Source: an uncultured Faecalibacterium sp. (GTDB lineage: Bacteria > Bacillota > Clostridia > Oscillospirales > Ruminococcaceae). From it: a stretch of DNA of 22,607 nt. The translations under genes were made by a program, and so were the position numbers. The notes beneath the pieces were generated by a model. It ran no database searches, had not been told where the DNA came from, and was given only the letters and a program-made list of their open reading frames with translations. The stretch spans positions 1 through 22,607 of the forward strand of contig CAKTGS010000026.1 in the NCBI GenBank assembly GCA_934561485.1, read 5' to 3'. This document shows positions 4,807 through 19,819 of the stretch, in pieces; within the stretch, counting starts at the first letter, position 1; each line of letters opens with the position of its first letter.

Positions 4807-6123
4807 ATGCGGATCGGACTGGTTGAATTTTTGCTCATTCTGGCCATTGCGTCTCTCACGGTGGGGCCGCAGGTGGCTCTGTTTGTGGACCGCTGGGTGC
4901 GGCGCGCCAACCGCGCCAATGCCCGGGCTGCACGCCTCCGGGCGGAGTACGCAGCCCAGGCCGCTGCCGAGCGGGACGCCCTGCTCAAGCGGTTCCGCAC
5001 GGCCAGCACCGTGTTCGGGGTGTGCATCCTGCTGGCACTGGTGTATGCGCTGGTGTTTCGGCCCATCGACACCCCGCCCCAGGCCTACCGGGCACCGGAC
5101 CTCCGGCAGAGCACCAGTGCCGTGCAGACGGCGCTTTCCGCCGACAGCAGGGACGCCTGGGATCTGGGCGAATACCAGGGCGTGGACTGCATCCGCGCAC
5201 AGGACGGCTTTGTGTATGCGGCAGCCTGGAACGGCGCCGCCCTGAAAAAGCGCACAAGCGACCTGGTGCGCACCGATGGCGGCCACGATGCGGCCATTCT
5301 GAGCGTGGACGGCGAGCTGACCAGCTTTGCCTTTGACAGCAATGGCGACCTGTGGCTTGCCGTGCTCACGCCCGCTGGCGGCAGCCTGTGCCGCGCCGCC
5401 CACGACAGCTGGGGCACCGCCGTGGAACAGGTGGTCACCCAGATGGACGGGGCAGCCCTGGGCGCGATCTCAGCCGTGGAAGCCGGCCCGGACGGCAAGA
5501 TCTACTTTGCCGTGGCAGCCGATGCCAGCGCCGCCGCCGGACTGGAAAGTGCCCTGCGCACCGAGCTGCTGGCCCACACCGGCACCGGCTGGGTGTACGT
5601 GTACGACCCGGCAGACCACTCGGTACAGCGGGTGCTGGGCGGTGTGGCCGGGGCTTCCGGCCTGGCACTCTCGGCGGACGGCAGCACCCTGTACGTCTCG
5701 GATCTGGGCAGCCGCTGTGTGTGGAGCGTGGATGCCGCCGCCCGGGAAGTGACGGCAGGCGGCAAAAACTGCCAGAGCTTCGTCTCCGGCCTGCCCGGCT
5801 ACCCCGGCGCGCTGGCCCTGGACACAGACGGCACCCTGTACGTCAGTTACCGCTGGGGGTACAGCCGCTGGCTGGAACGGAACGCAGGCAGCACCTTCCT
5901 GCGCGGCATTGCACTGCGGGTGGGGCAGTCCATGCAGGAAAAGCTGTTCGGCCTGGCGGCGGACGCCCCCTGCGCGGAAGCGGTGAGCCTGCAGACCGGC
6001 CAATGGCAGCGCACCCTTACGGGCGGCAGGCGTCTTGGCAGCTGCACCGCGTTGTGCCCGGTGGGCAGCAAAGTGTATTTTGGTGCGGCAGACAGCGCAG
6101 TGCTGCTGTCTGCCCGTGTATAA
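4807..6123 (+). CDS. Membrane-anchored strictosidine-synthase/SMP-30-like beta-propeller with TatA/TatB-like N-terminus
   Basis: This 438-residue protein has two parts. Residues 1-62 read as a Tat A/B module: an IG-x-x-E start with E7, a short hydrophobic helix (8-19), a GP hinge at 20-21 exactly 13 residues after the Glu as in TatB, then a long charged amphipathic helix (22-62). A second transmembrane helix (about 66-84) leads to an extracytoplasmic propeller (about 115-438) with blade repeats such as GLALSADGSTLYVSDLGSR and a GLPGYPGALALDTDGTLYVS stretch, typical of strictosidine-synthase-like/SMP-30 sugar-lactonase folds. It is the first gene of an operon with a UPF0340 protein (15-bp gap) and YggS. 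I do not know its substrate. The propeller call is good; whether the N-terminus works in Tat transport or only resembles it is open. Confidence 0.75.
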   Translation: MRIGLVEFLLILAIASLTVGPQVALFVDRWVRRANRANARAARLRAEYAAQAAAERDALLKRFRTASTVFGVCILLALVYALVFRPIDTPPQAYRAPDLRQSTSAVQTALSADSRDAWDLGEYQGVDCIRAQDGFVYAAAWNGAALKKRTSDLVRTDGGHDAAILSVDGELTSFAFDSNGDLWLAVLTPAGGSLCRAAHDSWGTAVEQVVTQMDGAALGAISAVEAGPDGKIYFAVAADASAAAGLESALRTELLAHTGTGWVYVYDPADHSVQRVLGGVAGASGLALSADGSTLYVSDLGSRCVWSVDAAAREVTAGGKNCQSFVSGLPGYPGALALDTDGTLYVSYRWGYSRWLERNAGSTFLRGIALRVGQSMQEKLFGLAADAPCAEAVSLQTGQWQRTLTGGRRLGSCTALCPVGSKVYFGAADSAVLLSARV

Positions 6124-6138
6124 AAGGAGTGTTTTGAA

Positions 6139-6699
6139 ATGACCGAAGCATTCAAAAAACAGATCGAGGCCGAGGCCCGGCAGGCTGTGACCGAACTGCT
6201 GGCCCAGGCAAAGCTGAAAAAAGGCGATGTGTTTGTGGTGGGCTGCTCTTCCAGCGAGATCGTGGGCGGCCGCATCGGCAAGGATTCCAGCCTGGAAGCC
6301 GCCCAGGCCGTGTATGCGGGCATTGCCCCGGTGCTGGCCGGGCAGGGCATCTGGCTGGCGGCCCAGTGCTGTGAGCACCTGAACCGTGCCATTATCCTCG
6401 AACGGGAAGCCGCCGAAAAGTACGGCTGGGAGGAAGTGTGCGTAGTGCCCCGCCCCCATGCCGGCGGCAGCTGGGCCACCACCTGCTGGAAGAATTTCCA
6501 GGACCCCATTGCCGTGGAAGAGATCCGCGCCCATGCAGGCATCGACATTGGCGGCACCCTCATCGGGATGCACCTCAAACGGGTGGCCGTGCCGGTGCGC
6601 CTGACCCTGAACAAGATCGGCGAAGCCAACATTTTGTGCGCCCGCACCCGCCCGAAGCTGATCGGCGGCGAGCGCGCCAAGTATACCGAGGAGGACTGA
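6139..6699 (+). CDS. ywlG: UPF0340 / TIGR01440 family protein (YwlG-like)
   Basis: This is a 186-residue soluble protein of the conserved Bacillota family typified by Bacillus YwlG; its biochemical role is not established. It shows the family hallmarks VVGCSSSEIVGGRIGK near residues 34-50, WLAAQCCEHLNRA near 73-86, the VPRPHAGGSW segment, and AHAGIDIGGTLIGMHLKRVAVPVR in the C-terminal half. Length is as expected for the family. The ATG at 6139 is preceded by AAGGAGTG, 15 bp after the stop of the propeller gene. Its own 3' end carries the GAGGAGG that serves the next gene, yggS, 6 bp downstream, so the three genes are translationally linked. The conserved cysteines and glycine-rich loops suggest ligand binding, but no activity should be assumed. 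Confidence 0.88.
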   Translation: MTEAFKKQIEAEARQAVTELLAQAKLKKGDVFVVGCSSSEIVGGRIGKDSSLEAAQAVYAGIAPVLAGQGIWLAAQCCEHLNRAIILEREAAEKYGWEEVCVVPRPHAGGSWATTCWKNFQDPIAVEEIRAHAGIDIGGTLIGMHLKRVAVPVRLTLNKIGEANILCARTRPKLIGGERAKYTEED

Positions 6700-6705
6700 C
6701 GACCT

Positions 6706-7425
6706 ATGGCAGAAAAGACGTTGGAACAGATGAAGGCAGCCGTGGCCGAGCTCCGCGAAAAGATGGCCGCTGCCGCCCGGGAAGCGGGCCGCGACCCGAC
6801 CGCCGTACAGCTGTGCGCCGCCTGCAAGACCCGCACCGCCGCCACCGTGGCCGCCAGTGCAGCCCTGCCCATTGACGTGTTCGGCGAGAACCATGTGCAG
6901 GAGCTGTGCGCAAACTACGATGCCGGAGCCTACTGCGGCAAGCCCAGCCACTTCATCGGCCACCTGCAGACCAACAAGATCAAAAAGGTGCTGGGCCGCG
7001 CCAGCCTGATCCAGAGCGTGGACAGCGAGCATCTGCTGCTGGCCATCGAGAAGGAAGCCGCCAGGGCCGGCATCGTGCAGGACATCCTGCTGGAAGTGAA
7101 CATCGGCGGGGAAGAGAGCAAAACCGGCGCAGCACCGGAGGCTCTGTGGCCCCTGCTGGATGCCGCCGCTGCCCAGGAGCACATCCGGGTCAAAGGCCTG
7201 ATGGCCATTCCACCCGTGAACGATGATGACGCCCAGAACCGCCGGTATCTGGCCCAGGTGTACAAGCTGTTTGTGCAGGCCGGAGAGCGCGGCTATCAGA
7301 ACGTGGCCATGGAGACCCTTTCCATGGGCATGAGCGGCGACTTTGAAAACGCCATCCGCGAAGGTGCCACCCTGGTGCGCATCGGCACCGCCATTTACGG
7401 CGAGCGGGATTATAGTAAAAAATAA
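6706..7425 (+). CDS. yggS: YggS/YlmE-family pyridoxal 5'-phosphate homeostasis protein
   Basis: This 239-residue cytoplasmic PLP-binding protein (PLPBP/PROSC family) has a single alanine-racemase-like TIM barrel and no catalytic partner domain; it buffers free PLP and affects amino-acid and keto-acid balance. The Schiff-base lysine is K41 (CAACKTR; the family more often reads VSKT). Other family boxes are FGENHVQEL, HFIGHLQTNKIKKV, LEVNIGGEESKTG, GLMAIPP and the phosphate-binding LSMGMSGDFENAIREGATLVRIGTAIYG at the C-terminus. In many Bacillota the gene sits beside sepF in the division cluster; here it ends the propeller-ywlG operon instead, and no sepF is nearby. The ATG at 6706 uses the GAGGAGG inside the 3' end of ywlG. 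Confidence 0.94.
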   Translation: MAEKTLEQMKAAVAELREKMAAAAREAGRDPTAVQLCAACKTRTAATVAASAALPIDVFGENHVQELCANYDAGAYCGKPSHFIGHLQTNKIKKVLGRASLIQSVDSEHLLLAIEKEAARAGIVQDILLEVNIGGEESKTGAAPEALWPLLDAAAAQEHIRVKGLMAIPPVNDDDAQNRRYLAQVYKLFVQAGERGYQNVAMETLSMGMSGDFENAIREGATLVRIGTAIYGERDYSKK

Positions 7426-7432
7426 ATAGCAA

Positions 7433-7680
7433 CCGATGAGGGGCAGGCAAGCGGCAGCTTGCGGGAAATTACCTCTCATCCGGCGCTACACGCCACCTTT
7501 CCCCCTTTTGTCGCTGTGCGACATTTTCCCCCGGCCGGGGGAAATCTGTCCCCAAGGGGTGAAGGCTTCAGCGGCGGTGACAAAGTTTCCGGTCAAGCCG
7601 TAAAGTTTGCCGTACTAAAAGGCTTTCCCCGGTCGGGGGAAGCTGTCACCGCAGGTGACTGATGAGGGCGCGGACTTAGC
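7433..7680. repeat. Modular palindromic (REP/MITE-like) intergenic repeat, copy 1
   Basis: The 295-bp gap between yggS and the ABC gene holds no gene but is packed with symmetry. GATGAGGGG and its inverse ACCTCTCATC flank a first module; a 20-bp perfect palindrome TTTCCCCCGG/CCGGGGGAAA lies at 7525-7544; CTTTCCCC-GGTC-GGGGGAAG lies near 7622-7641, then GTCACC-GCA-GGTGAC and GATGAGGG. The same module order (C-run/G-run hairpin, GTCA..TGAC hairpin, GATGAGGGG) recurs at 21371-21535. No transposase is present. Confidence 0.7.
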
Positions 7681-7720
7681 GGCTCTATTGAAAAACAAAA
7701 ATCAACAAAACGGAGGAACC

Positions 7721-9511
7721 ATGCCGAAAAATAAGACCAACGACCCCGGGGCGCACCATGCAAGCAGCGGTGCGCTGATCCGGCGCTTTCTGCCTTACCT
7801 GGCCAAGTACAAAAAGACCCTGTTTCTGGACCTGTTCTGTGCAGCCCTTACCACTTTGTGCGACATCGTGCTGCCCAAGATCATGAGCACCATTACCAAC
7901 TCCGCCATGGGGGTGGGCATCACCCTGACGGCGGGCATCGTGCTGCGGCTGGCGGCGCTCTACTTTGTGCTGCGTGTCATCGACGGCGCAGCCAGCTACT
8001 ATATGTCCAGCATCGGCCACATCATGGGCGTGCACATTGAAACCGATATGCGCCGCGATGCCTTTGACCACCTGCTGCGGCTGGACCACACCTACTACAA
8101 CAACACCAAGGTGGGCACCATCATGGGCCGCATCACCAACGACCTGTTCGATGTGACCGAGTTCGCCCACCACTGCCCGGAGGAGTTTTTCATTGCGGGC
8201 ATCAAGATCGCGGCGTCCTTTGTCATTTTGTGCCGCGCCAGCATCCCGCTGACCTTGGCAGTGTTTGCCTGTGTGCCCCTGATGGGCATTGTGTCGGTGT
8301 ACCTGAACGGCCGTCTGCGGGCGCGGTTCCGTCAGCAGCGCGTTCAGATCGGCGAGCTGAACTCCACCATCGAGGACAGCCTGCTGGGGCAGGGTGTGGT
8401 CAAGGCCTTTGCCGCCGAGGGCCAGGAGCGGGAAAAGTTCGCCAAGGGCAACCAGGATTTTGAGCAGATCAAGACCCTTGGCTACTACGCCATGGGTGCC
8501 TTCAACACCTCCACCCGCCTGTTTGACGGCCTGATGTATTTGGTGGTGATCCTGGCGGGCGGCCTGTCGCTGGTGTACGGTAAAATTACCGCCGGTGACA
8601 TGGTGGCGTATATGCTCTACGTCACCACCCTCATCGCCACCATCCGCCGCATTGTGGAATTTGCGGAGCAGTTCCAGCGCGGCATGACCGGCATCGAGCG
8701 CTTTGCCGAGATCATGGACACCCCGGTGACCATCCAGGACGCCCCGGACGCCGTGCCTCTGCAGCCCGGCCCCGGCGAGATCCGGTTTGAAAATGTCAGC
8801 TTTGAGTACCCGGACGACCACAACAAGGTGCTGCACAACGTCAGCCTGAACATCCGCGCCGGAGAGCGGCTGGCGCTGGTGGGTGCCTCCGGCGGCGGCA
8901 AGACCACCCTGTGCAACCTGATCCCCCGCTTTTACGAGGTGACCAGCGGCCGCATCCTCATTGACGGGCAGGACATCCGCCATGTCACCCTCAAGAGCCT
9001 GCGCGATGACATTGGCATCGTGCAGCAGGACGTGTACCTGTTCAGCGGCACGGTGGCCCAGAACATTGCCTACGGTAAGCCCGGTGCCACCCGGGACGAA
9101 ATTCTGGAAGCCGCCCGCCTGGCCGGTGCCGAAAAATTCATCCTTGCCCTGAAAGACGGCTTTGACACCTACGTGGGTGAGCGCGGCGTGAAGCTTTCCG
9201 GCGGCCAGAAGCAGCGCATTGCCATTGCCCGGGTATTTCTGAAGAACCCGCCCATCCTCATTCTGGACGAAGCCACCAGCGCCCTGGACAACGAGAGCGA
9301 GATCCTGGTGGGCCAGAGCCTGGAAAAACTGGCCCATGGACGCACCACCCTGACCATTGCCCACCGCCTGACCACCATCAAAGATTACGACCGCATCCTG
9401 GTGCTGGGCGAGGAGGGCATTGTGGAAGAAGGCACCCATGCCCAGCTGCTGGAACACCAGGGCGTGTATTACCGCCTGTGGAACCAGCTGCCCAGCGGGG
9501 ACACCCTGTAA
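7721..9511 (+). CDS. ABC-type exporter, fused permease and ATPase (half-transporter)
   Basis: This 596-residue half-transporter of the MsbA/multidrug-lipid export type has an N-terminal six-helix membrane domain (about 20-325) and a C-terminal nucleotide-binding domain (about 345-590). The NBD has Walker A GASGGGKT (388-395), signature LSGGQ (492-496), Walker B ILILDE with D516 and E517, and an H-loop H548. One such subunit must dimerise; no partner half-transporter is adjacent, so a homodimer is likely. The frame is open from 7655, but the first 22 codons lie in repeat DNA, and the ATG at 7721 has CGGAGG 4-5 nt upstream, so 7721 is the start. Substrate cannot be told from sequence. A 58-codon Mac-domain ORF follows 13 bp downstream. 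Confidence 0.93.
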   Translation: MPKNKTNDPGAHHASSGALIRRFLPYLAKYKKTLFLDLFCAALTTLCDIVLPKIMSTITNSAMGVGITLTAGIVLRLAALYFVLRVIDGAASYYMSSIGHIMGVHIETDMRRDAFDHLLRLDHTYYNNTKVGTIMGRITNDLFDVTEFAHHCPEEFFIAGIKIAASFVILCRASIPLTLAVFACVPLMGIVSVYLNGRLRARFRQQRVQIGELNSTIEDSLLGQGVVKAFAAEGQEREKFAKGNQDFEQIKTLGYYAMGAFNTSTRLFDGLMYLVVILAGGLSLVYGKITAGDMVAYMLYVTTLIATIRRIVEFAEQFQRGMTGIERFAEIMDTPVTIQDAPDAVPLQPGPGEIRFENVSFEYPDDHNKVLHNVSLNIRAGERLALVGASGGGKTTLCNLIPRFYEVTSGRILIDGQDIRHVTLKSLRDDIGIVQQDVYLFSGTVAQNIAYGKPGATRDEILEAARLAGAEKFILALKDGFDTYVGERGVKLSGGQKQRIAIARVFLKNPPILILDEATSALDNESEILVGQSLEKLAHGRTTLTIAHRLTTIKDYDRILVLGEEGIVEEGTHAQLLEHQGVYYRLWNQLPSGDTL

Positions 9512-11883: not shown

Positions 11884-13122
11884 ATGAAGATCACCCGCCG
11901 TGCCGTTCTTCGTCTTACCGGCATCACCGCCGCTTCGCTGGCGCTGACCGGCTGCCGTGTGTCCGGCAGCCTTGCACTGGGCAGCAATCTGCCCGGCTGG
12001 CTGCAGAAAATGTTTGGCGGCAGCGCCGCTTCCTCTTCGCAGGCCGGTTCCGCCGCCGCAGGGGAAGCGCCGGCTGCCTCGGAAGCGGATGCTTCTTCCG
12101 CTGCCAGCGAGGAACCGGCAGCTTCCAGCCTGCTGCCCGCCTACGATGCCGACCCGCTGACCGGCGAAGCCAACCGCAGCAGCGGCCGTCTTGTGGGCGT
12201 TATGGTCAACAACATCAGCTATTCCGAGCGGCAGAATGCCCGGCCGCAGCGCGGCCTTTCCTCCGCCGACCTGCTCATTGAGAGCAAGGTGGAGGGCGGC
12301 ATCTCCCGCTTCTGCGCCGTATACCGGGACGCCGACAGCATCCCCGAGGTCGGCCCCATGCGTTCCGGCCGCGACCAATTCCTGCAGCTGCTCATGCCCT
12401 GGCAGGCGCTGTACTACCACGATGGCGAGAGTGCGCCCTGCACCAAGTTCATCAGCGTATACAACTATTCCGGGCTGAACATCGGCGGCAAAAACTACTT
12501 CAACACGCCCACCCACCCGCACGTTGCCCACCGCAACAGCCGGGGCCGCAATGTGGCCTACGAGCACACCGAGTTCACCTCCGGCACCGAGGTCAAACAG
12601 GCGGCAGCCAATGCCGGCATCGGGCTGACCTATCCCTATGACGCCACCTTCTTCCGCTTTGCGGACTACCGCACCGGGGCCGAAAACGCCATGCGCGGTG
12701 CTGCTTCCGGCAAAAGCGTGAACATTGAGCACTCGGCCAACTACAAAACCAGCTTTACCTACAGCCTGCTGAGCCGCAGCTACAAGATGCAGATGTACAG
12801 CCACGCCGCCGGCGGATACGAAAACACCGTGGACGAGCTGACCGGCAAACAGCTGAGCTTTGACAACCTGCTCGTCTGCTTTGCCCCCATTGCCGCTTAC
12901 CCCGGAGACTCCGGCGATGTGCAGCAGGTGGACTATGCAGCCGGCGGCGAAGCCTACTTCTTTACCCGGGGCAGCGTGCAGGTGGGCCGCTGGGAAAAGC
13001 CTTCGCCGGAGCATCCGCTCAAGGTCTACGATGACACCGGGGCCGAGATGCTGTTCAACCGCGGCAAGACCTACCTTGCCATCGTGGACGATGACGAGTG
13101 GTCCAACTTCCGCTATCAGTAA
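11884..13122 (+). CDS. DUF3048 (YerB-like) lipoprotein with twin-arginine signal
   Basis: This 412-residue surface lipoprotein has a signal with TRRAVLRLTG and a lipobox LTGC at C24, then a low-complexity Ala/Ser/Glu linker (about 48-86) and a DUF3048 domain. Family hallmarks are VGVMVNNISYSERQNARPQR, SADLLIESKVEGGISRFCAVY, EVGPMRSGRDQFLQ and, near the C-terminus, the LSFDNLLV...GGEAYFFTRGS block, as in Bacillus YerB. The function of DUF3048 proteins is not known; all are exported. The ATG at 11884 has GGAGGT 7 nt upstream. It is followed by a shorter paralogue after 13 bp. The twin arginines with a hydrophobic stretch containing Ala/Gly/Thr suggest Tat export, but Sec export cannot be excluded. 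Confidence 0.88.
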   Translation: MKITRRAVLRLTGITAASLALTGCRVSGSLALGSNLPGWLQKMFGGSAASSSQAGSAAAGEAPAASEADASSAASEEPAASSLLPAYDADPLTGEANRSSGRLVGVMVNNISYSERQNARPQRGLSSADLLIESKVEGGISRFCAVYRDADSIPEVGPMRSGRDQFLQLLMPWQALYYHDGESAPCTKFISVYNYSGLNIGGKNYFNTPTHPHVAHRNSRGRNVAYEHTEFTSGTEVKQAAANAGIGLTYPYDATFFRFADYRTGAENAMRGAASGKSVNIEHSANYKTSFTYSLLSRSYKMQMYSHAAGGYENTVDELTGKQLSFDNLLVCFAPIAAYPGDSGDVQQVDYAAGGEAYFFTRGSVQVGRWEKPSPEHPLKVYDDTGAEMLFNRGKTYLAIVDDDEWSNFRYQ

Positions 13123-13135
13123 ACGAGGAAACAAG

Positions 13136-14230
13136 ATGAAACACAACTGGATGCAGGCTCTGGGCGCGCTTGTGCTGTGCGCAGTGCTGCTCACCGGCTG
13201 CACGCTGTCCGGCGGCACTCCGGCGGACAGCACCGCTTCCGCCGACCCGCTGACCGGGCAGGAGCTGCTTTATCCCGGCCAGCGCATTGCTGCCGTTGTA
13301 ATCGACAATTCTGCCAGCAGCGTGCCGCAGTGGGGCATTGGCAGCGCATCGGTGGTGCTGGAAGCCCTGACCGCCGCCGATGCAGCCCCCAGCCTGTGTC
13401 TGGTGTATCCATCGCTGCAAGCCATGCCCACCGTTGGCCCGGTCACTTTGGGGGAGGACTTGTACTGGCGGCTGCTCAGCGGCCAGCAGGTGCTGCCCAT
13501 CCAGCGCGGGGCAGGGCAGTACACCCGCAGCTATCTGGAATACTACAACATCCGCGCCGTGGATGCGCTGGAAGTAGGCCGCAACGCCTTCAGAAGCGGC
13601 ACCGAGTGGGCCACAAACCCCGCCTGGCGCACCAGCGGGGCAGATGCCGCCGCCGTTTTGCCGGACCTTGGCATTTCCTCCGCGCTGAGCAGCATCACCC
13701 TTGCATCCTCGGCAGCCGCCTCGGAGACCGAACCGGACACGCCGGTGGTGCCGCCCCTGCTGCCCCTGCAGATGAACGGCCGCCTGCCGGACGCCGATGC
13801 CGCCGATGCGGTGCGGGTCACGGTGAACTTCCAGTCCCTGGGCAGCACCGGCTTCGTCTACCAGGCCGAGCAGAGCACCTATGCCATGCTGCACGCAGAC
13901 GGCACCCCGCAGACCGATGCCAACACCGGCCAGCAGGCCGCCTTTGACAACCTGCTGATCCTTTACAGCACGTCCGCCCTGCGGGACGATGAGCGCACCC
14001 TGGACTACGATCTGTCCATGGGCGGCGGCGTGTGGCTGAACGGCGGCCACCTGTGGCACATCACCTGGACCCAGGGCACCGACTCCACCTTTGCCCTTTA
14101 CGACTCCGATGGCCGCCCCCTGACGCTGGAAAGCGGGCGCAGCTACATTGCGCTGCTCTCCAGCCTGACCGGCCAGGAACTGGCGGTACAGAACTCCGCT
14201 GGGGAAGACCTGCTGGCCGTGGAAGAATGA
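13136..14230 (+). CDS. Divergent DUF3048-like lipoprotein (paralogue of the preceding gene)
   Basis: This 364-residue protein begins with a Sec-type lipoprotein signal (LCAVLLTGCTL, lipid Cys C22) and the same DPLTG-x-E lead-in as its neighbour. The DUF3048 pattern is recognisable but worn: VVIDNSASSVPQWGIGSASVVLEA, LCLVYPS, PTVGPVTLGEDLYWRLL, then AAFDNLLILY and a GGGVWLNGGHLWHITW block that matches the YFFTRGS/WEK region of the first copy. The arginine-rich motif after VGP (MRSGR in copy 1) is VTLGE here, so the two copies probably do different jobs. The ATG at 13136 has ACGAGGA upstream and starts 13 bp after the first gene's stop. Tandem duplication followed by divergence is the simplest history. 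A terminator follows at 14253. Confidence 0.8.
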   Translation: MKHNWMQALGALVLCAVLLTGCTLSGGTPADSTASADPLTGQELLYPGQRIAAVVIDNSASSVPQWGIGSASVVLEALTAADAAPSLCLVYPSLQAMPTVGPVTLGEDLYWRLLSGQQVLPIQRGAGQYTRSYLEYYNIRAVDALEVGRNAFRSGTEWATNPAWRTSGADAAAVLPDLGISSALSSITLASSAAASETEPDTPVVPPLLPLQMNGRLPDADAADAVRVTVNFQSLGSTGFVYQAEQSTYAMLHADGTPQTDANTGQQAAFDNLLILYSTSALRDDERTLDYDLSMGGGVWLNGGHLWHITWTQGTDSTFALYDSDGRPLTLESGRSYIALLSSLTGQELAVQNSAGEDLLAVEE

Positions 14231-14299: not shown

Positions 14300-14905
14300 T
14301 TACAGGTCCACCACGCTGCCCACCTCTGCGGGAGAGGCCGGCACCGGGCCAAGCGAGACCTCGTCTGCGGTGCGGTGCACCGTAAAGGCCACGCTGCGGC
14401 CGGATGCAAAATCCGGCTGGTAGGTCAGCTCCAGCGTCTGCCAGTTTTCCGGCACGGCGCAGAAGCAGTGCAGCAGGGCACCGCGCCCCGCCGCCAGGTT
14501 CAACGTAAAGATGGAAGCGTCTGCCGCGTTCTCGCCGTACAGCGGCGCGGCAAAGCTGCCGCAGCGCACCGGCTGGCCGTTGCAGGCTGCGGTCACCCCG
14601 CTGCCCATGCTGTACAGGTCGGCACGGGTGCGCACCTCGCGGCTCTGCAGGTAGCTTGTGCCCACCGGCAGGCTGCCGGCGGAAAGGTTTTCCACCGAAA
14701 GATATACCAGCACGCCGCCCAGCTCCTGTGCCGGGGCATAGCCCAGCAGCTCCACGGCGGCTTTGCCGTCCAGCAGGGCCGGCTGGCCCGCAAGGCACAG
14801 CTGTTCTGCCGCCGCAGATACACCGGTGAGCAGCGCAGCCGCAAGGCTGACGGCACCGGAGCCGGCATATTTCAGGAATGACCGGCGGGAGATGGATTGC
14901 GACAT
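14300..14905 (-). CDS. Tat-signal exported protein, DUF4352-like fold (no lipobox)
   Basis: This 201-residue protein has a clear twin-arginine signal (SRRSFLKYAG, then a moderately hydrophobic Ala/Leu stretch) ending in an AxA-type site near VSAAAEQ, so it should be cleaved by signal peptidase I and released rather than lipid-anchored. The mature part is beta-rich and is related to the protein at 17586: both have a YLSVENLS / LVTVANRS strand, a CNGQPVRCG / CDGQSVLCG loop with two cysteines, and a W-Q-x4-TY-x-P-x-FA C-terminal strand. That pattern suggests a DUF4352/immunoglobulin-like domain; partner unknown. ATG 14905 has AAGGAGG upstream and a strong promoter at 14946-14974. The pair of cysteines could form a disulphide outside the cell. 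Confidence 0.78.
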   Translation of the reverse strand: MSQSISRRSFLKYAGSGAVSLAAALLTGVSAAAEQLCLAGQPALLDGKAAVELLGYAPAQELGGVLVYLSVENLSAGSLPVGTSYLQSREVRTRADLYSMGSGVTAACNGQPVRCGSFAAPLYGENAADASIFTLNLAAGRGALLHCFCAVPENWQTLELTYQPDFASGRSVAFTVHRTADEVSLGPVPASPAEVGSVVDL

Positions 14906-14945
14906 GGGACTTCCTCCTTGATGCGATGAAAAGTGGTTCCTTTAT

Positions 14946-14974
14946 ACAATAAAGGATTGTGTTTCTTCTGTCAA
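14946..14974 (-). promoter_or_regulatory. sigma-A promoter of the Tat-exported protein gene
   Basis: On the minus strand a consensus TTGACA (14969-14974), 17-bp spacer and TATTGT (14946-14951). The -10 region TATTGTATAA allows a shift of a few bases. Predicted start near 14939, leader about 34 nt. Confidence 0.75.
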
Positions 14975-15014
14975 GGGCTTCCCCCGGATTGTAACCGTTT
15001 CTTTCCGGCGCTGC

Positions 15015-15689
15015 TTATTCGTAGGCCTCGTTTTCTTCGGTTTCGGCCTGGCCGCGCAGGGTGTCGGCGTAGCCGTCCGGCACAATGTCAATGGCTTCCA
15101 CCAGGCGGTCGCGCATCCATAGCTGCACATCGGTCTGCACGGTATAGCCGCAGCCCGGGTCTGCCATCCACTGCTCGGGGCGGCGGCTGGGCAGGGCACG
15201 CTGGCTGAGCATACTCATGATCACGCCGCCGTGGGTCACACAGGCAGCTTCGGTCACGTCCATGCGGATCATATACTCAAACAGCTTCAGCAGGCTTTCG
15301 GCGCAGCGGGCGTGGAACTGCTCGGTGGGTTCAGCTCCTTCCGGCACAAAGCCGGAACCCGGAGTGATCCACTTTTTGAAGTCCTCGTCATGCACCAGTT
15401 CCTTCACCGGACGATTCTCAAATTTGCCAAACCCGGCTTCCCGCAGATCGTGCACCGTAAACTGGTGCGCTGCGTTGGGGAACAGAATGTTCGCGGTTTC
15501 CACTGCGCGCAGCATGGGGGAGGCGAACACGGTATCCACCTGCGGATACACAAAGCGCTCCTTCAGCTCGGCCAGCTGGGCACGGCCCTCATCGCACAGC
15601 GGAATGTCCGTTCCGCTGCCAATGTACAGGCCCTGCAGGTTGCCCGCCGTCATGCCGTGGCGGATGAGATGAAGCTTAAAGGTTTTCAT
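15015..15689 (-). CDS. Histidine phosphatase family protein (phosphoglycerate-mutase-like)
   Basis: This 224-residue cytoplasmic enzyme belongs to the histidine phosphatase superfamily branch 1. It has the catalytic IRHGMT motif (R10, H11), the second arginine R61 in ASPMLRAVET, an acid/base glutamate E84 in LREAGFGKFE, and the second histidine H153 in CVTHGGVIM. Such enzymes hydrolyse or transfer small phosphate esters through a phospho-histidine; CobC-like alpha-ribazole phosphatases and general phosphatases look alike at this level, and no cobalamin genes are nearby, so the substrate is unassigned. The C-terminus is acidic (TEENEAYE). ATG 15689 has GAGGTG upstream. It lies between two exported-protein genes on the same strand, but I see no sign of a shared role. 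Confidence 0.9.
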   Translation of the reverse strand: MKTFKLHLIRHGMTAGNLQGLYIGSGTDIPLCDEGRAQLAELKERFVYPQVDTVFASPMLRAVETANILFPNAAHQFTVHDLREAGFGKFENRPVKELVHDEDFKKWITPGSGFVPEGAEPTEQFHARCAESLLKLFEYMIRMDVTEAACVTHGGVIMSMLSQRALPSRRPEQWMADPGCGYTVQTDVQLWMRDRLVEAIDIVPDGYADTLRGQAETEENEAYE

Positions 15690-15753
15690 GCAAATACACC
15701 TCTTATCTTGTATGGAAATCGCCCGTCAGCCGCGCACCCCCGCCAAAAGGGGA

Positions 15754-16320
15754 TCATTCGTAGCGGTTGATCTCCACGGTGGCGGGGAACACGTTCAGGT
15801 CGATGCGGCAGTTATTGCGCACGGTCACGCTGGTCAGGGCATTGCAGTCCTTGAAAGCGCCGACCTTGATGTAGCCCACGCTCTCGGGAATGGTGATGTC
15901 GGACAGAGCGGTGCAGCCGTTGAAGGCAGCCGCCTCAATGTACTCCACGGTGCTGCCCAGGGTGACGGTGGTCAGGTTGGTGCAGCCCTTGAAGGAGCTG
16001 CCGCCCACGGTGGTAATGCCGTCCTCCACCACAACAGCGGTGATCTCATCTGCCTGGTCGGCCCAGGGAGCGGGGCTGTTGCTGTTGTAGTCGGTCATGC
16101 GGCCGGTGCCGCTCACGGTCAGGGTGCCGTCTGCCAGGGTCCAGGTGGCGTTCTCGCCGCAGGTGTTGTCACCGGCAGCAGCCACGGTGGAAGCAGCGGT
16201 GCTGGTGCTGGAAGCAGCAGAGCCTGCGCTGCTGCCGCAGCCGGTCAGGGCAAAGCAGCTTGCAGCCAGCAGAGCAGCCACAGCCAGGCTGCACAGACGG
16301 GTTTTACGATCGATCTTCAT
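15754..16320 (-). CDS. BspA-type leucine-rich-repeat (LRR_5) lipoprotein
   Basis: This 188-residue surface lipoprotein has a Sec signal with lipobox ALTGC (C28), a Ser/Ala/Thr spacer (about 30-60), then the BspA lead-in CGENATWTLADGTLTVSGTG and about three LRR_5 repeats of the form SFKGCTNLTTVTLGSTVEYI, AFNGCTALSDITIP, AFKDCNALTSVTV. BspA-like proteins act in adhesion or matrix binding in mouth and gut bacteria; this one is very short, near the minimum for a repeat solenoid. An upstream in-frame ATG at 16353 exists, but ATG 16320 has GAGGA about 9 nt before it and starts a proper signal peptide. Promoter at 16413-16418. The signal is Sec-like; its arginines are not paired. Confidence 0.88.
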   Translation of the reverse strand: MKIDRKTRLCSLAVAALLAASCFALTGCGSSAGSAASSTSTAASTVAAAGDNTCGENATWTLADGTLTVSGTGRMTDYNSNSPAPWADQADEITAVVVEDGITTVGGSSFKGCTNLTTVTLGSTVEYIEAAAFNGCTALSDITIPESVGYIKVGAFKDCNALTSVTVRNNCRIDLNVFPATVEINRYE

Positions 16321-16412
16321 AATGTGTATCCTCTTTCCTATCAAAATAAACAATTTCCGGCCCGGCTCCGCGGCGCGAGTGTGCGCCGGGCAAGGACAGG
16401 TGCCAAGGATGC

Positions 16413-16418
16413 ATTATA
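16413..16418 (-). promoter_or_regulatory. Extended -10 promoter of the BspA-type lipoprotein gene
   Basis: On the minus strand TGCTATAAT gives a consensus -10 with an extended TG element; the -35 is weak. Predicted start near 16405, giving a leader of about 85 nt that contains a CCCGGC...GCCGGG stem. Confidence 0.6.
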
Positions 16419-16479
16419 GCACAAACTGTGGAAAGATGGAATAGCCATTTGGTTATTTTTTCGTAAACCGCCGCTGCAG

Positions 16480-16513
16480 GGCAGTTTTCTGGCAGAAAAG
16501 CCAAAAAACTGCC
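16480..16513. repeat. Long inverted repeat in the 438-bp divergent intergenic region
   Basis: GGCAGTTTT (16480-16488) pairs with AAAACTGCC (16505-16513), continued after a 1x1 mismatch by TGGC (16490-16493) with GCCA (16500-16503) around a 6-nt loop. It sits 60 bp upstream of the lipoprotein -10. It is not followed by a T-run on either strand, so it is more likely an operator or a decayed terminator. The rest of 16514-16664 is AT-rich with no gene seen. Confidence 0.55.
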
Positions 16514-16664
16514 AAAAATTTTCCGTTCCGGCATTTTTTGCCCGCTGCGCCGCGCCACAAAATGTATGTGGTAATACCCATAGTTTAGCATAGATATGGT
16601 GTGCCGCACAAGGCTTTTGACAAAAATGACGAAAATTGAAGAAAAATATCGTCACTTTTCTTGC

Positions 16665-16693
16665 TTTACAAGTCGTTTTCCATTGTGTATAAT
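16665..16693 (+). promoter_or_regulatory. sigma-A promoter of the XRE regulator gene
   Basis: TTTACA (16665-16670), 17-bp spacer and a consensus TATAAT (16688-16693). Start near 16700, leader about 58 nt with GAGGAG before ATG 16759. Confidence 0.82.
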
Positions 16694-16758
16694 CAACCTG
16701 CTGTAAACCAAAAATCAAGGATGTTCCCCCGAAATGTGAACATTGAGGAGCCAAGATC

Positions 16759-17454
16759 ATGGAATTCAATCGTATCATCAAACTGCTGCGCAAAGAGCGC
16801 GGCATCACCCAGAAGCAGGCGGCCGAGGACCTGGGCGTTTCGCAGGCCCTGCTTTCTCACTACGAAAAAGGCATCCGCGAGTGCGGGCTGGACTTTGTGG
16901 TGCGCGTTGCGGATTATTATAATGTTTCCTGCGATTATCTGCTGGGCCGCAGTGCTGAGCGCAACGGCATGATGCTGTCGGCGGAGGATATCCCCAACCC
17001 CGACAAGATGAAGGACAACATCTACCACGGCAGCGTGCTGCCCACCATGAACAAAAAGCTGATCTCCAACAGCCTGAACGTGCTGTATGCCAAGATCGGC
17101 CAGTGCCACAGCAAGGCCCTGACCACCGAGGTAAGCGCTTACCTGATGATGGCCGTGGCCAAGATGTTCCGCCTGCTCTACTCCGCCGAGCCGCACAACG
17201 CTGCCAGCATGTTCAGCATTGATCCCATCCGCTGGCGTGGCTGCTCGGACGCTGTGATGCGCATGTCCGAGTCCAACGTGGAATCCCTGCTGGACGGCCA
17301 GGACGTGAACGGCGGCGAGGGCGTGAAGGACACCGCTGCCCTGGCCATGACCACCGAGAGCCTGACCCGCGAGTTTCCCCTGTATACCCCCAGCCTGCTG
17401 AACCTGGTCAAGACCAGCGAGACCCATGTAAAGGGCCTGACCCCGGAGCAGTAA
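16759..17454 (+). CDS. XRE-family helix-turn-helix regulator
   Basis: This 231-residue protein has an N-terminal Cro/CI-type HTH (about 5-62: IIKLLRKERGITQKQAAEDL, VSQALLSHYEKGIREC, then VADYYNVSCDYLLGRS) and a helical C-terminal region of about 165 residues without a domain I recognise. Longer XRE proteins of this layout often bind a ligand or partner protein with the C-terminal part. It has no peptidase (LexA/ImmA) motif, no HipB partner and no nearby prophage genes, so a chromosomal regulator is more likely than a phage repressor. ATG 16759 follows GAGGAG at a normal distance and a consensus promoter. The following two genes have promoters of their own; control by this protein is not shown. 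Confidence 0.9.
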   Translation: MEFNRIIKLLRKERGITQKQAAEDLGVSQALLSHYEKGIRECGLDFVVRVADYYNVSCDYLLGRSAERNGMMLSAEDIPNPDKMKDNIYHGSVLPTMNKKLISNSLNVLYAKIGQCHSKALTTEVSAYLMMAVAKMFRLLYSAEPHNAASMFSIDPIRWRGCSDAVMRMSESNVESLLDGQDVNGGEGVKDTAALAMTTESLTREFPLYTPSLLNLVKTSETHVKGLTPEQ

Positions 17455-17498
17455 CGGCCCTTCTCTGTGAAAATGCTGTAAATTATGGCGGCATTGTC

Positions 17499-17527
17499 TT
17501 GCATCTGCACCCCGGAAAGGCTATAAC
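17499..17527 (+). promoter_or_regulatory. sigma-A promoter of Tat lipoprotein gene 1
   Basis: TTGCAT (17499-17504), 17-bp spacer, TATAAC (17522-17527); start near 17534 and a leader of about 50 nt with AGAAGGAGGA before ATG 17586. No terminator was seen between the XRE gene and this promoter. Confidence 0.7.
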
Positions 17528-17585
17528 TAGAGTAGAAGATTCTGGAACGCGCAGGCTTTGCCCTGCCAGAAGGAGGACCCATACC

Positions 17586-18200
17586 ATGTCGAATCCCATT
17601 TCCCGCCGTACATTTCTCAAGTGCACCGGTGCATCCGCTGCCGCCGTGGGCGCAGCCAGCCTGCTGGGCGGCTGCAAGCAGAACGGCAGTTCCACCGTGG
17701 TGCAGGTAAAGGTGGGCGATAAGGTCAGCAACTGGAACAACCTGGGCGTGCAGCTCACCAGCCTGTACAAGCTTACCAGCGACCCCCAGCAGGCCGGTTA
17801 CGAATACATCGCCGTGCTGGTTACCGTGGCAAACCGCTCCAAGACGGAGACCTTTGCCATCGGCGCACAGAACCTGGCCGAGATCAACGCCGCCTACCCG
17901 GTGCCTCCGCTGGAAAACCTGGACGCCAACTTCCAGGCCCTGGCGGAAGCTTCCACCGACTTTGCCGCATCCTGCGATGGCCAGAGCGTGCTGTGCGGCG
18001 CCAACATCTCGCTGTACAACAAGAACTCCCAGAGCTTTTCGGACTCCACCAGCCTGCCCCCCCAGGGCACCGGCTACCTGCAGCTGGTGCTGATGGTGCC
18101 CACCGGCTGGCAGCAGATGGACGTGACCTACATGCCCACCTTTGCCCCCGACAAGACCCTGACGTTCACCATGACTTCTGCAGATGTGACCCGCGCATAA
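17586..18200 (+). CDS. Tat-signal lipoprotein, DUF4352-like
   Basis: This 204-residue protein has a textbook twin-arginine motif (SRRTFLKCTG) followed by a lipobox LGGC at C30, so the mature protein should be folded before export and lipid-anchored. The mature part has a VKVGDKVS...LGVQLTSLYKL opening and YEYIAVLVTVANRSKTETFAIG, the usual form of a DUF4352/immunoglobulin-like beta sandwich, with a two-cysteine loop CDGQSVLCG and a C-terminal GWQQMDVTYMPTFAPDKTLTF strand pair. It is a paralogue of the AxA-cleaved protein at 14300-14905. An AAGGAGGA site precedes ATG 17586. A short 8-bp hairpin (18205-18226) follows the stop but lacks a T-run, so transcripts may continue into the next gene. Confidence 0.82.
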   Translation: MSNPISRRTFLKCTGASAAAVGAASLLGGCKQNGSSTVVQVKVGDKVSNWNNLGVQLTSLYKLTSDPQQAGYEYIAVLVTVANRSKTETFAIGAQNLAEINAAYPVPPLENLDANFQALAEASTDFAASCDGQSVLCGANISLYNKNSQSFSDSTSLPPQGTGYLQLVLMVPTGWQQMDVTYMPTFAPDKTLTFTMTSADVTRA

Positions 18201-18278
18201 CGCCACGAATTTCCATTAAAATTCGTCTAAAATGTACGTTCTTGCCACAAAACGTTCACAATTATTTTGCAAAAAGCA

Positions 18279-18307
18279 TTGACTTTTGCCCCCGTTTCGC
18301 CTATTGT
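18279..18307 (+). promoter_or_regulatory. sigma-A promoter of Tat lipoprotein gene 2
   Basis: TTGACT (18279-18284), 17-bp spacer, TATTGT (18302-18307), with start near 18314 and AAAGGAGGA before ATG 18363. Confidence 0.75.
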
Positions 18308-18362
18308 ATAGGTAACGCCTTATGGCACAAACTGTACGTACATTCCAAAGGAGGAACGAAAT

Positions 18363-18920
18363 ATGTCTATGGTATTTTCCCGCCGCTCTTTCCTGAAATA
18401 TACCGCCGTTGCCGCTGTGGCTGTGGCAGGCTCCAGCCTGCTGAGCGGTTGTGATGGTGTCTTCTCCAACCCCAACCGTCCCACCGGTGTGGCTGGCCAG
18501 ACCCTGACCCTGGAAGGCTCCCACAAGCTGGAGAACCCTATCTACACTGCTTCCACCAAGACCCTGACCTGTGATATGACCCTCAAGTGCACCAGCGCCA
18601 ACGGTCTGTCCGTCATGTCCTCCAACTTCTCCGTGAAGGTCACCGACAAGGACGGCAAGGTCAAGGCTGATTACAACACCCTGGGCACCACCAACAACGG
18701 TGTTTCCATCAGCTCCGGCACCCAGAACCTGAGCAAGGGCCAGTCCATGACCACCAAGCTCACCGTGACCGGTTTTGCATTTGAAGAAACCGATACCGTT
18801 GCGGTGTGCTACTGGCCGCGCAAGTACGCCACTGCAACCGGCGACCCCCTGCAGGACGTGTATGCAACCTGGGTTCTGCAGAACCCCGCCAAGAAGATCG
18901 CCGACATCAAGACCGTTTGA
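18363..18920 (+). CDS. Tat-signal lipoprotein, beta-rich, unknown function
   Basis: This 185-residue protein has SRRSFLKYTA followed by an Ala/Val stretch and a lipobox LSGC at C30: a Tat lipoprotein signal almost identical in form to that of the preceding gene. The mature part is Ser/Thr/Lys-rich with alternating beta strands (TLTLEGSHKL, TLTCDMTLKC, SNFSVKVTDKDGKVKADYN, SMTTKLTVTGFAF) and fits a single immunoglobulin-like sandwich; I recognise no named domain. The codon choice is narrower than in neighbouring genes (mostly ACC, TCC, CTG, AAG, AAC), and the ribosome site is near-perfect, which points to high expression. It has its own promoter and a strong terminator at 18939-18968. A role as an abundant surface lipoprotein is inferred; partner unknown. 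Confidence 0.8.
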   Translation: MSMVFSRRSFLKYTAVAAVAVAGSSLLSGCDGVFSNPNRPTGVAGQTLTLEGSHKLENPIYTASTKTLTCDMTLKCTSANGLSVMSSNFSVKVTDKDGKVKADYNTLGTTNNGVSISSGTQNLSKGQSMTTKLTVTGFAFEETDTVAVCYWPRKYATATGDPLQDVYATWVLQNPAKKIADIKTV

Positions 18921-18938
18921 TCCCGGTTCCGCTTTTCC

Positions 18939-18968
18939 GGCCCGCGCAAAAACTGCGCGGGCCTTTTT
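18939..18968 (+). terminator. Rho-independent terminator
   Basis: GGCCCGCGCA (18939-18948), 5-nt loop, TGCGCGGGCC (18954-18963), then five T. It ends the Tat lipoprotein transcript. Confidence 0.92.
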
Positions 18969-19051
18969 GTTTGCCCGGCAGCAGGGCAAGGGAACGCCCA
19001 TTTTCGGCAAAGTGTTGCAAAGCGCGCAAGGTTTTTTAGTTGTTTTGTTTC

Positions 19052-19080
19052 TTGTGCACAGATGCATTTTCCGGTACAAT
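19052..19080 (+). promoter_or_regulatory. sigma-A promoter and structured leader of the PRTase-like gene
   Basis: TTGTGC (19052-19057), 17-bp spacer, TACAAT (19075-19080). The leader of about 97 nt can fold: GATGCGC (19101-19107) pairs with GCGCATC (19147-19153) around an inner CAGCGG/CCGCGCTG hairpin. No T-run follows, so any control would be at translation rather than by attenuation. Confidence 0.7.
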
Positions 19081-19183
19081 AAAGACAACACCTTGTGCAG
19101 GATGCGCAGCGGCCCCGGCGACCGCCGCGCTGTTTTGTATTTTACGGCGCATCTGCGCCCGGCTGAAAAGGAGTGCTGCCTGT

Positions 19184-19819
19184 ATGATCAACATGGTCAA
19201 ACTGCCCACCAAGAAAAGCGATCTGTTCCTGCGCGTTGCCAAGGGACATTTTGCCACCAGCCACAGCCACATCAACTATTACATTGACGTGACCACCCAG
19301 AAATCCCGCCTGTCGGAAGCCAAGGCCGTGGCCAAAGAGCTGGTCAGCGCCTACCAGCACAGCACCATCGTGGACACCGTGCTCTGCCTGGACGGCACCC
19401 AGGTGATCGGCACCTGCCTGGCCAATGAGCTGACCAAGGACGGCTTTGCCAACATGAATGCCCACCAGACCATTTACGTGGTCACCCCGGAATACACCAC
19501 CGGCAGCCAGATCATTCTGCGCGACAACCTGGCCCCTATGGTCAAGGGCAAGCACGTGCTCATTCTGGCCGCTTCCATCACCACCGGCTACACTGTGCAG
19601 GCCGCTGTGGAAGCCGTGAACTACTACGGCGGCACCGTGGCCGGGCTTTCGGCCATTTTTGCCACCACCCACGAGTGCCTGGGCTACCCGGTCACCTCCA
19701 TTTTTGACCCTTCCAGCCTGCCGGACTATGCCAGCTTCGACAGCCGCGAGTGCCCCCTGTGCAAGGCCGGTCAGCGCATTGATGCGCTGGTGAACAGCTT
19801 TGGCTATTCGGCGCTGTAA
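19184..19819 (+). CDS. Orotate-phosphoribosyltransferase-like protein with degenerate PRPP motif
   Basis: This 211-residue protein has the type I phosphoribosyltransferase fold: VDTVLCLDGTQVIGTCLANEL, then the PRPP-loop position reading VLILAASITTGYTV, then a GLSAIFATTHE strand. In active PRTases the loop is normally hhhhDDhhTTGgT; here both acidic residues that hold the PRPP ribose are alanines (LAAS), while the phosphate-binding TTG is kept. The C-terminal CPLCKAGQRIDALVNSFGYSAL adds a Cys pair not usual in PyrE. It may bind a nucleotide or PRPP as a sensor, or be an altered enzyme. The frame is open from 19040, but the promoter -10 lies inside that stretch, so the start is ATG 19184 with AAAAGGAG upstream (a second ATG is at 19193). 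No pyr genes are adjacent. Confidence 0.75.
   Translation: MINMVKLPTKKSDLFLRVAKGHFATSHSHINYYIDVTTQKSRLSEAKAVAKELVSAYQHSTIVDTVLCLDGTQVIGTCLANELTKDGFANMNAHQTIYVVTPEYTTGSQIILRDNLAPMVKGKHVLILAASITTGYTVQAAVEAVNYYGGTVAGLSAIFATTHECLGYPVTSIFDPSSLPDYASFDSRECPLCKAGQRIDALVNSFGYSAL

Follow-up and report, generated by a model that had tools for sequence, protein, structure and literature searches.

In a stretch of 22,607 nucleotides from an uncultured Faecalibacterium sp. (contig CAKTGS010000026.1; the whole stretch is called the window below), one gene encodes a fusion protein of 438 amino acids. The first part of the protein is a short module that, judged by profile comparisons, is homologous to TatA and TatB of the twin-arginine translocation (Tat) system. 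This module is followed by a second membrane helix and by a propeller of the strictosidine synthase/SMP-30 type. We see about an even chance that the fusion is a third, lineage-specific member of the TatA/B lineage, which would dock on TatC and carry its propeller at the exit side.

The fusion gene lies at 4807..6123 on the forward strand and was recognised from the list of open reading frames and from its homologues; the earlier note on this DNA had its coordinates exactly. The TatA/B-type membrane helix (residues 4-21; 4816..4869, forward strand) was delimited by profiles and alignment. It is followed by a charged helix (residues 22-64; 4870..4998, forward strand; 11 K/R and 4 D/E) that is presumably cytoplasmic and is amphipathic in part of the fusion family. 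A hydropathy peak (sliding segments starting at residues 65-73) and a structure model that is helical to residue 84 place the second membrane helix at about residues 65-86 (4999..5064, forward strand). The propeller covers residues 105-438 (5119..6120, forward strand), and two of its metal-ligand positions are replaced (S284 and G334). The second membrane helix and the propeller had been claimed before, and both were recovered, the former as a hydrophobic stretch at about residues 65-86 and the latter as an SGL propeller in Pfam and in an AlphaFold2 model. From this arrangement we infer that the propeller is probably held outside the cell.

Likeness of the N-terminal module to TatA and TatB

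Six residues of the first helix (G4, E7, L10, I14, G20 and P21) were identical in 31/31 aligned module rows (29 distinct). The motif I3-G4-x-x-E7 and the GP hinge (G20-P21) 13 residues past the Glu were as described in the earlier note, and the E. coli TatB chain 2mi2 aligned in register with them (I4-G5-x-x-E8 ... GP). The note had made its reading depend on the conservation of the Glu and the GP, and both are kept in every one of the 31 rows. Homologues of the window fusion reached 98% identity in the protein-database searches (best 120 of 668 and best 120 of 690 matches). Among the 25 fusions aligned to it, the least identical were L058 (31%), L030 (32%) and L057 (38%).

The comparison with PF02416 gave a divided answer. 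The window's own module had no match in the Pfam search, so the case rests on the fusion family and not on the window sequence alone; profiles of the family do match Tat proteins, and they reversed the rejection to which the window module by itself would have led. When ten N-termini (the window's included) were searched with PF02416, six matched at E<=10 (best 3.1e-4 and 20.4 bits, cut-off 21), and each match ran from residue 3 to residue 21 or 22. At E<=1, PF02416 matched 13/31 aligned modules. Its cut-off was exceeded by the fusion in G316 (22.9 bits) and in G007 (21.1 with its neighbours). The TatB model TIGR01410 matched 31/31 modules at E<=1 (best L057, 5.1e-8; window E 0.027, a weak match), with a top score for the fusion modules of 33.3 bits against a curated cut-off of 56.5. 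A six-frame PF02416 search of 31 genomes of the genus (E<=10) detected the fusion in 13 of the 30 genomes having it. Next to the TatA-like and TatB-like genes, the fusion was the top-ranking match in 12 of these 13 genomes (narrowly so in G006) and the second-ranking one in G307.

A profile of the module family was searched against all PDB chains. Seven matches were obtained at E<=10, and the first five were all TatA or TatB, namely TatB 2mi2 (E 2.1e-4), TatB 9dzz (2.5e-4), TatAd 2l16 (0.0041) and, weakly, TatB 9e03 (0.28) and TatB 9e02 (0.43). With hhalign the fusion module matched the genus TatA with a probability of 97.0% (score 52.7) and the genus TatB with 95.9% (44.3), where the yardstick of genus TatA against TatB gave 98.2% (67.4). 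Sixty shuffles of the helix columns, which keep composition, reached top scores of 26.2 (TatA) and 26.7 (TatB), compared with 52.9 and 45.3 observed in the same orientation; the top shuffle probabilities were 64.1% and 68.7%, respectively. The genus profiles (24 TatA and 15 TatB) were taken from loci with a pattern requiring G-x-x-E and GP, which favours likeness there. The six-frame PF02416, PDB and TIGR01410 results and the search of another genus are free of that pattern.

When the full-length fusion profile was searched in this other genus of the order, 15 matches were found in 13/32 genomes, in frames of 66-161 amino acids. All 15 started at profile position 1 and ended at 29-38. The seven that were inspected (six loci and G607) were all at tatA or tatB, and tatC was recognised adjoining all of them but L120. 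On these comparisons the likeness is more than chance, because the six helix residues are invariant though whole-protein identity drops to 31%, and because the scores are well over those of the shuffled controls. Two tests of a TatA or a TatB origin disagreed: hhalign favours TatA, and NCBIfam ranks TatB first in 5/6 modules listed. The 26-28 comparable residues are too few for a TatA-versus-TatB tree.

Conservation of the features of the module

Constraint was compared in an alignment of 26 full-length sequences, from which five more copies were excluded whose modules resemble those of their aligned relatives. Invariant columns made up 6/18 of the first helix (residues 4-21) and 1/22 of the second (residues 65-86; one-sided Fisher p 0.024). 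The spacing of E7, L10 and I14 puts all three on one helix face.

The region past the hinge had been described as a long charged amphipathic helix. The charge was found, but the amphipathicity was significant in a shuffle test in only part of the 26 sequences (p<0.05 in 10, between 0.05 and 0.11 in 7, above 0.2 in the other 9). The p value was 0.051 for the window, and it was 0.001 and 0.020 for the genus TatA and TatB, respectively. The Glu, the GP and the helix-face residues are kept throughout, amphipathicity is kept in part of the family and an F-K/R pair (F then K or R) is mostly absent; the docking features therefore appear better kept than those associated with TatA pores, an association that is our own.

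The propeller domain

Pfam SGL matched the window protein with 45.3 bits (cut-off 26.3). The AlphaFold2 model of the fusion had a mean pLDDT (predicted local distance difference test) of 86.6, and from about residue 105 to residue 438 it could be aligned with TGW6 and with strictosidine synthase; the VIA-align fold comparison covers residues 104-438, the propeller half. The proposed relationship to strictosidine synthase and SMP-30 was thus borne out in both sequence and model.

When compared with luciferin-regenerating enzyme, A-N-G corresponds to A283-S284-G285 and P-D-G to P333-G334-A335. The aligned N and D are presumably the metal ligands N154 and D204 of SMP-30; the third ligand, Glu18, was not located here. 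All 26 sequences lack N at the first and D at the second aligned position, and have S/A/G/T/P and G/A/T instead. Judged by these replacements, the propeller is likelier to bind or scaffold than to act as a classical hydrolase, and a remodelled metal site is possible.

Occurrence of the fusion and of Tat genes

Faecalibacterium is an abundant human gut commensal. A full-length fusion was found in 30/31 genomes of the genus. In the exception (G320, locus L082), the contig appears to start inside yggS and the fusion would be expected just upstream, and the absence may be an assembly gap. The genus bears the Tat system: tatC was found in 30/31 genomes (it was missing in G008, a metagenome bin), and TatA/TatB-type genes over the Pfam cut-off were also found in 30/31. 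A check for tatC and a separate tatA had been suggested, and both are present at this genus level, in strains other than the window's; tatC was not recognised within the 22.6-kb window. Two divergent genomes had additional short PF02416 matches at a distance from their local tat genes (G316:C1:125166-125309 and G090:C13:75243-75386); the match in G090 could represent the tatB missing there or a further copy.

Among 297 sampled genomes of the taxonomic family (at most 5 candidates scored per genome), 5 had the fusion in full length and 12 had TatC over the cut-off, in one case as a frame interrupted by stops. All 5 fusion-bearing genomes were among these 12. A sample of 394 genomes of the order, with up to 4 candidates scored per genome, yielded no full-length relative outside the genus; it did yield weak propeller matches (best E 2.4e-8, G373). 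No relative was found among 28 pattern matches in viral contigs. One phage record (MT837344.1, 7 kb, labelled Bacteriophage sp., from human faeces) carries a full-length copy of the fusion at 5039-6349 with 79% identity; the record may be mislabelled host DNA.

A word-limited search with an N-terminus query (L057 residues 1-62), among proteins of 0.55-1.75 times the length of the fusion, gave 2 matches in 107 candidates, both from the fusion family. One of them (P0168) has the precomputed domains PF02416 and PF08450, so the combination of Tat module and propeller is already visible in the database. No description of a TatA/B-propeller protein was found among the titles and abstract openings seen, which were part of larger result lists. 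In literature looked at mostly by listing, a single mention of Tat in Faecalibacterium was met, in a passage on single nucleotide polymorphisms of PMC8200495.

Position of the fusion relative to the tat genes

The fusion and tatC were on one contig in 14 genomes of the genus. They were 2.8-9.7 kb apart in 8, 71-136 kb in 3 and more than 600 kb in 3. All 8 close cases are convergent, with the fusion, DUF436, yggS and an ABC (ATP-binding cassette) transporter on one strand, followed on the opposite strand by tatC, tatA and tatB. In the BLAST neighbourhoods, the ABC transporter went unrecognised in L084, as did tatB in L085, where the contig starts. The three least identical aligned fusions (L030, L057 and L058) are all among the 8 close cases, which suggests that the closeness of fusion and tat genes is ancestral.

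Proposed role and alternative explanations

In the passages of PMC13323110 on the E. coli TatBC structure, the TatB E8 face runs along TatC helix 5, TatC T208 bonds the E8 side chain and Q215 bonds the E8 main chain. The same passages give TatA and TatB equivalent sites between three TatC subunits, with TatA1TatB2TatC3 as the likely composition. In the one Faecalibacterium TatC compared (G003), T208 and Q215 are kept. We propose from these residues that the module may dock on TatC; an additional member of the family that shares the docking residues could occupy an equivalent site, in which case the propeller would be held by the second helix outside the cell, near the exit of the cargo.

According to this proposal, the first 21 residues would form a short TatA/B-type membrane helix with its N-terminus out, in which the Glu, two more residues on the same face and the GP hinge are kept, and residues 22-64 would form a charged helix on the cytoplasmic side. 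The second helix would cross back and hold the propeller outside the cell. The Tat helix would dock where TatB or TatA sits between TatC subunits, and Glu7 would meet the TatC polar cluster there. At the trans face of the translocon, the propeller would bind or shield emerging folded Tat substrates, many of which are predicted lipoproteins. A more specific version, in which the fusion is an extra subunit of the Tat core complex at the equivalent TatA/TatB site and its non-catalytic propeller serves as a trans-side chaperone or release factor in a bacterium with many Tat-exported proteins, is put forward tentatively, at well below even likelihood.

Several observations weigh against a Tat role. 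Besides the missed PF02416 match of the window module, the fusion went undetected by PF02416 at E<=10 in 17 of the 30 fusion-bearing genomes. Non-Tat models come close or lead in some modules: TIGR02596 (E 0.05) outranks TatB (0.064) in L028, and TIGR01708 GspH (0.034) is close behind TatB (0.027) in the window. Post-hinge amphipathicity was at p>=0.05 in 16/26 sequences, and F then K or R within residues 29-50 was found in 3/31 modules. TatC M205, of the same polar cluster, aligns with Ala in the G003 TatC. Six other genomes of the taxonomic family have an intact TatC without a full-length fusion, and the fusion is a one-clade trait, so its co-occurrence with Tat counts as a single association. 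The fusion and tatC are 71 kb or more apart in 6/14 single-contig genomes; closeness to the tat genes may therefore be hitch-hiking.

In the stretches of the six genomes without a fusion (L113-L118, one of only 3.9 kb), no fusion, DUF436 or yggS was found by BLAST. Only tatA and tatC were recognised in L113-L118; tatB, tatA and tatC were recognised in Faecalibacterium and in the genus of G607.

The chief rival is that the module, although derived from Tat, serves only as a membrane anchor and has no part in Tat: the 5' end of a tatA or tatB gene would have been copied before a propeller that binds an extracellular ligand or polymer. Amphipathicity and the F-K/R pair, neither of which is general in the family, and the large distance to tat in 6 of the 14 genomes fit this view, and the second membrane helix would suffice to tether the propeller. 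Anchoring, however, needs hydrophobicity and not an invariant Glu and GP, which are kept in all 31 modules, while the second helix has a single invariant column among 22. We regard this explanation as a serious possibility, though one that falls well short of probable.

It is improbable that the fusion is a membrane-held enzyme with an incidental N-terminus and a propeller of the SMP-30/gluconolactonase or strictosidine synthase kind (as it is named in one database). The N and D at the SMP-30 ligand positions are replaced throughout the 26 sequences, though the site may have been remodelled.

That the likeness arose by chance, as it could in any protein that starts with a short helix and continues with a charged one (for example a pseudopilin or the b subunit of an F-type ATPase), is highly improbable: the PF02416 miss, the GspH and TIGR02596 scores and an ATP synthase b match in L058 (2.3e-5, TatB 6.1e-7) speak for it, but composition-keeping shuffles fall far short, all seven inspected matches in the other genus are tatA or tatB, the module has its Glu at +3 after the Gly where pseudopilins require it at +5, and a genuine TatA also matches the ATP synthase b model (E 0.043). 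The pseudopilin and ATP synthase b readings were set aside on the Glu spacing, the shuffles and the other-genus matches.

The reading of the earlier note is supported, with the Tat role still a conjecture, as that note had it; neither of the results that it named as adverse, loss of the Glu and GP or absence of tatC, occurred.

Comparison with known systems

The fusion shares with TatB and TatA (PF02416, TIGR01410 and TIGR01411) the short N-terminal helix, I/L-G-x-x-E, the GP at the same spacing and a charged helix thereafter, and its gene is near tat genes in several genomes. TatB and TatA, in contrast, have one membrane helix and no extracytoplasmic domain, to which the fusion adds a second helix and a propeller. 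The fusion also falls mostly under the curated cut-offs and mostly lacks the F-K/R pair, and TatA and TatB have genes of their own in the genus. With SMP-30/gluconolactonase/strictosidine synthase-like propellers (PF08450 and PF03088) it shares the propeller fold; it differs from them in the two aligned metal-ligand positions and in riding on a Tat-type module.

Events at the exit side of Tat are, in our view, poorly known for folded proteins. If the proposal is true, a Tat-family helix with its own presumed exit-side domain, found in 30 of the 31 genomes, would be a handle on the exit step, and TatA/B proteins would not always be small, one-helix proteins. An extra trans-side domain on the Tat core is likewise described in PMC13323110 for the atypical TatC of Myxococcus xanthus and Nitratifractor salsuginis, which have large periplasmic inserts. 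There the domain is inserted in TatC, whereas that of the fusion would ride on a TatA/B-family protein, and the two are likened by position and not by domain comparison.

Other genes of the window and predicted Tat cargo

Downstream of the fusion by 15 bases is a gene for a DUF436 protein (6139..6699, forward strand; PF04260, E 1.2e-78). The conserved neighbours that follow on the same strand are a YggS-like pyridoxal phosphate (PLP) protein (6706..7425; PF01168) and an ABC transporter (7655..9511; BLAST neighbourhood), next to which several relatives have the tat genes on the opposite strand.

Four proteins with twin-arginine signals had been claimed in the window. Two of them were over the TAT_signal cut-off and are predicted Tat lipoproteins (17499..18200, forward strand, PF10518 26.1 bits; 18363..18920, forward strand, 23.9 bits). 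A third (14300..14905, reverse strand) has the twin-arginine motif and was below the cut-off (14.6 vs 22.7 bits), and in the fourth (11884-13122) the motif was found by pattern only. Homologues of the first three lie between the ABC transporter and tatC in L088 (G304): that of 14300..14905 (77% identical) adjoins tatC, and those of the two lipoproteins (58% and 36%, respectively) are between the fusion and tatC. The block of twin-arginine-motif genes with its xre, PGM and PRT neighbours is beside the tat genes in L088 (10989-17602), and occurs in the window at 14300-19819 in inverted order and without tat genes. Given the place of the L088 homologues, the block in the window looks as if that neighbourhood had been rearranged.

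Between 30 and 50 TAT_signal matches per genome were obtained at E<=1 in seven genomes (G001, G003, G304, G305, G313, G322 and G316), some of which may be chance, and cargo thus looks plentiful. Many of the listed matches in these genomes are frames of 300-500 amino acids. Tat could be one of the principal routes of protein export in Faecalibacterium.

Two consecutive DUF3048 proteins are encoded at 11884-14230 of the window. The frame listed for the second one overlaps that of the first; the true start of the second probably lies further downstream.
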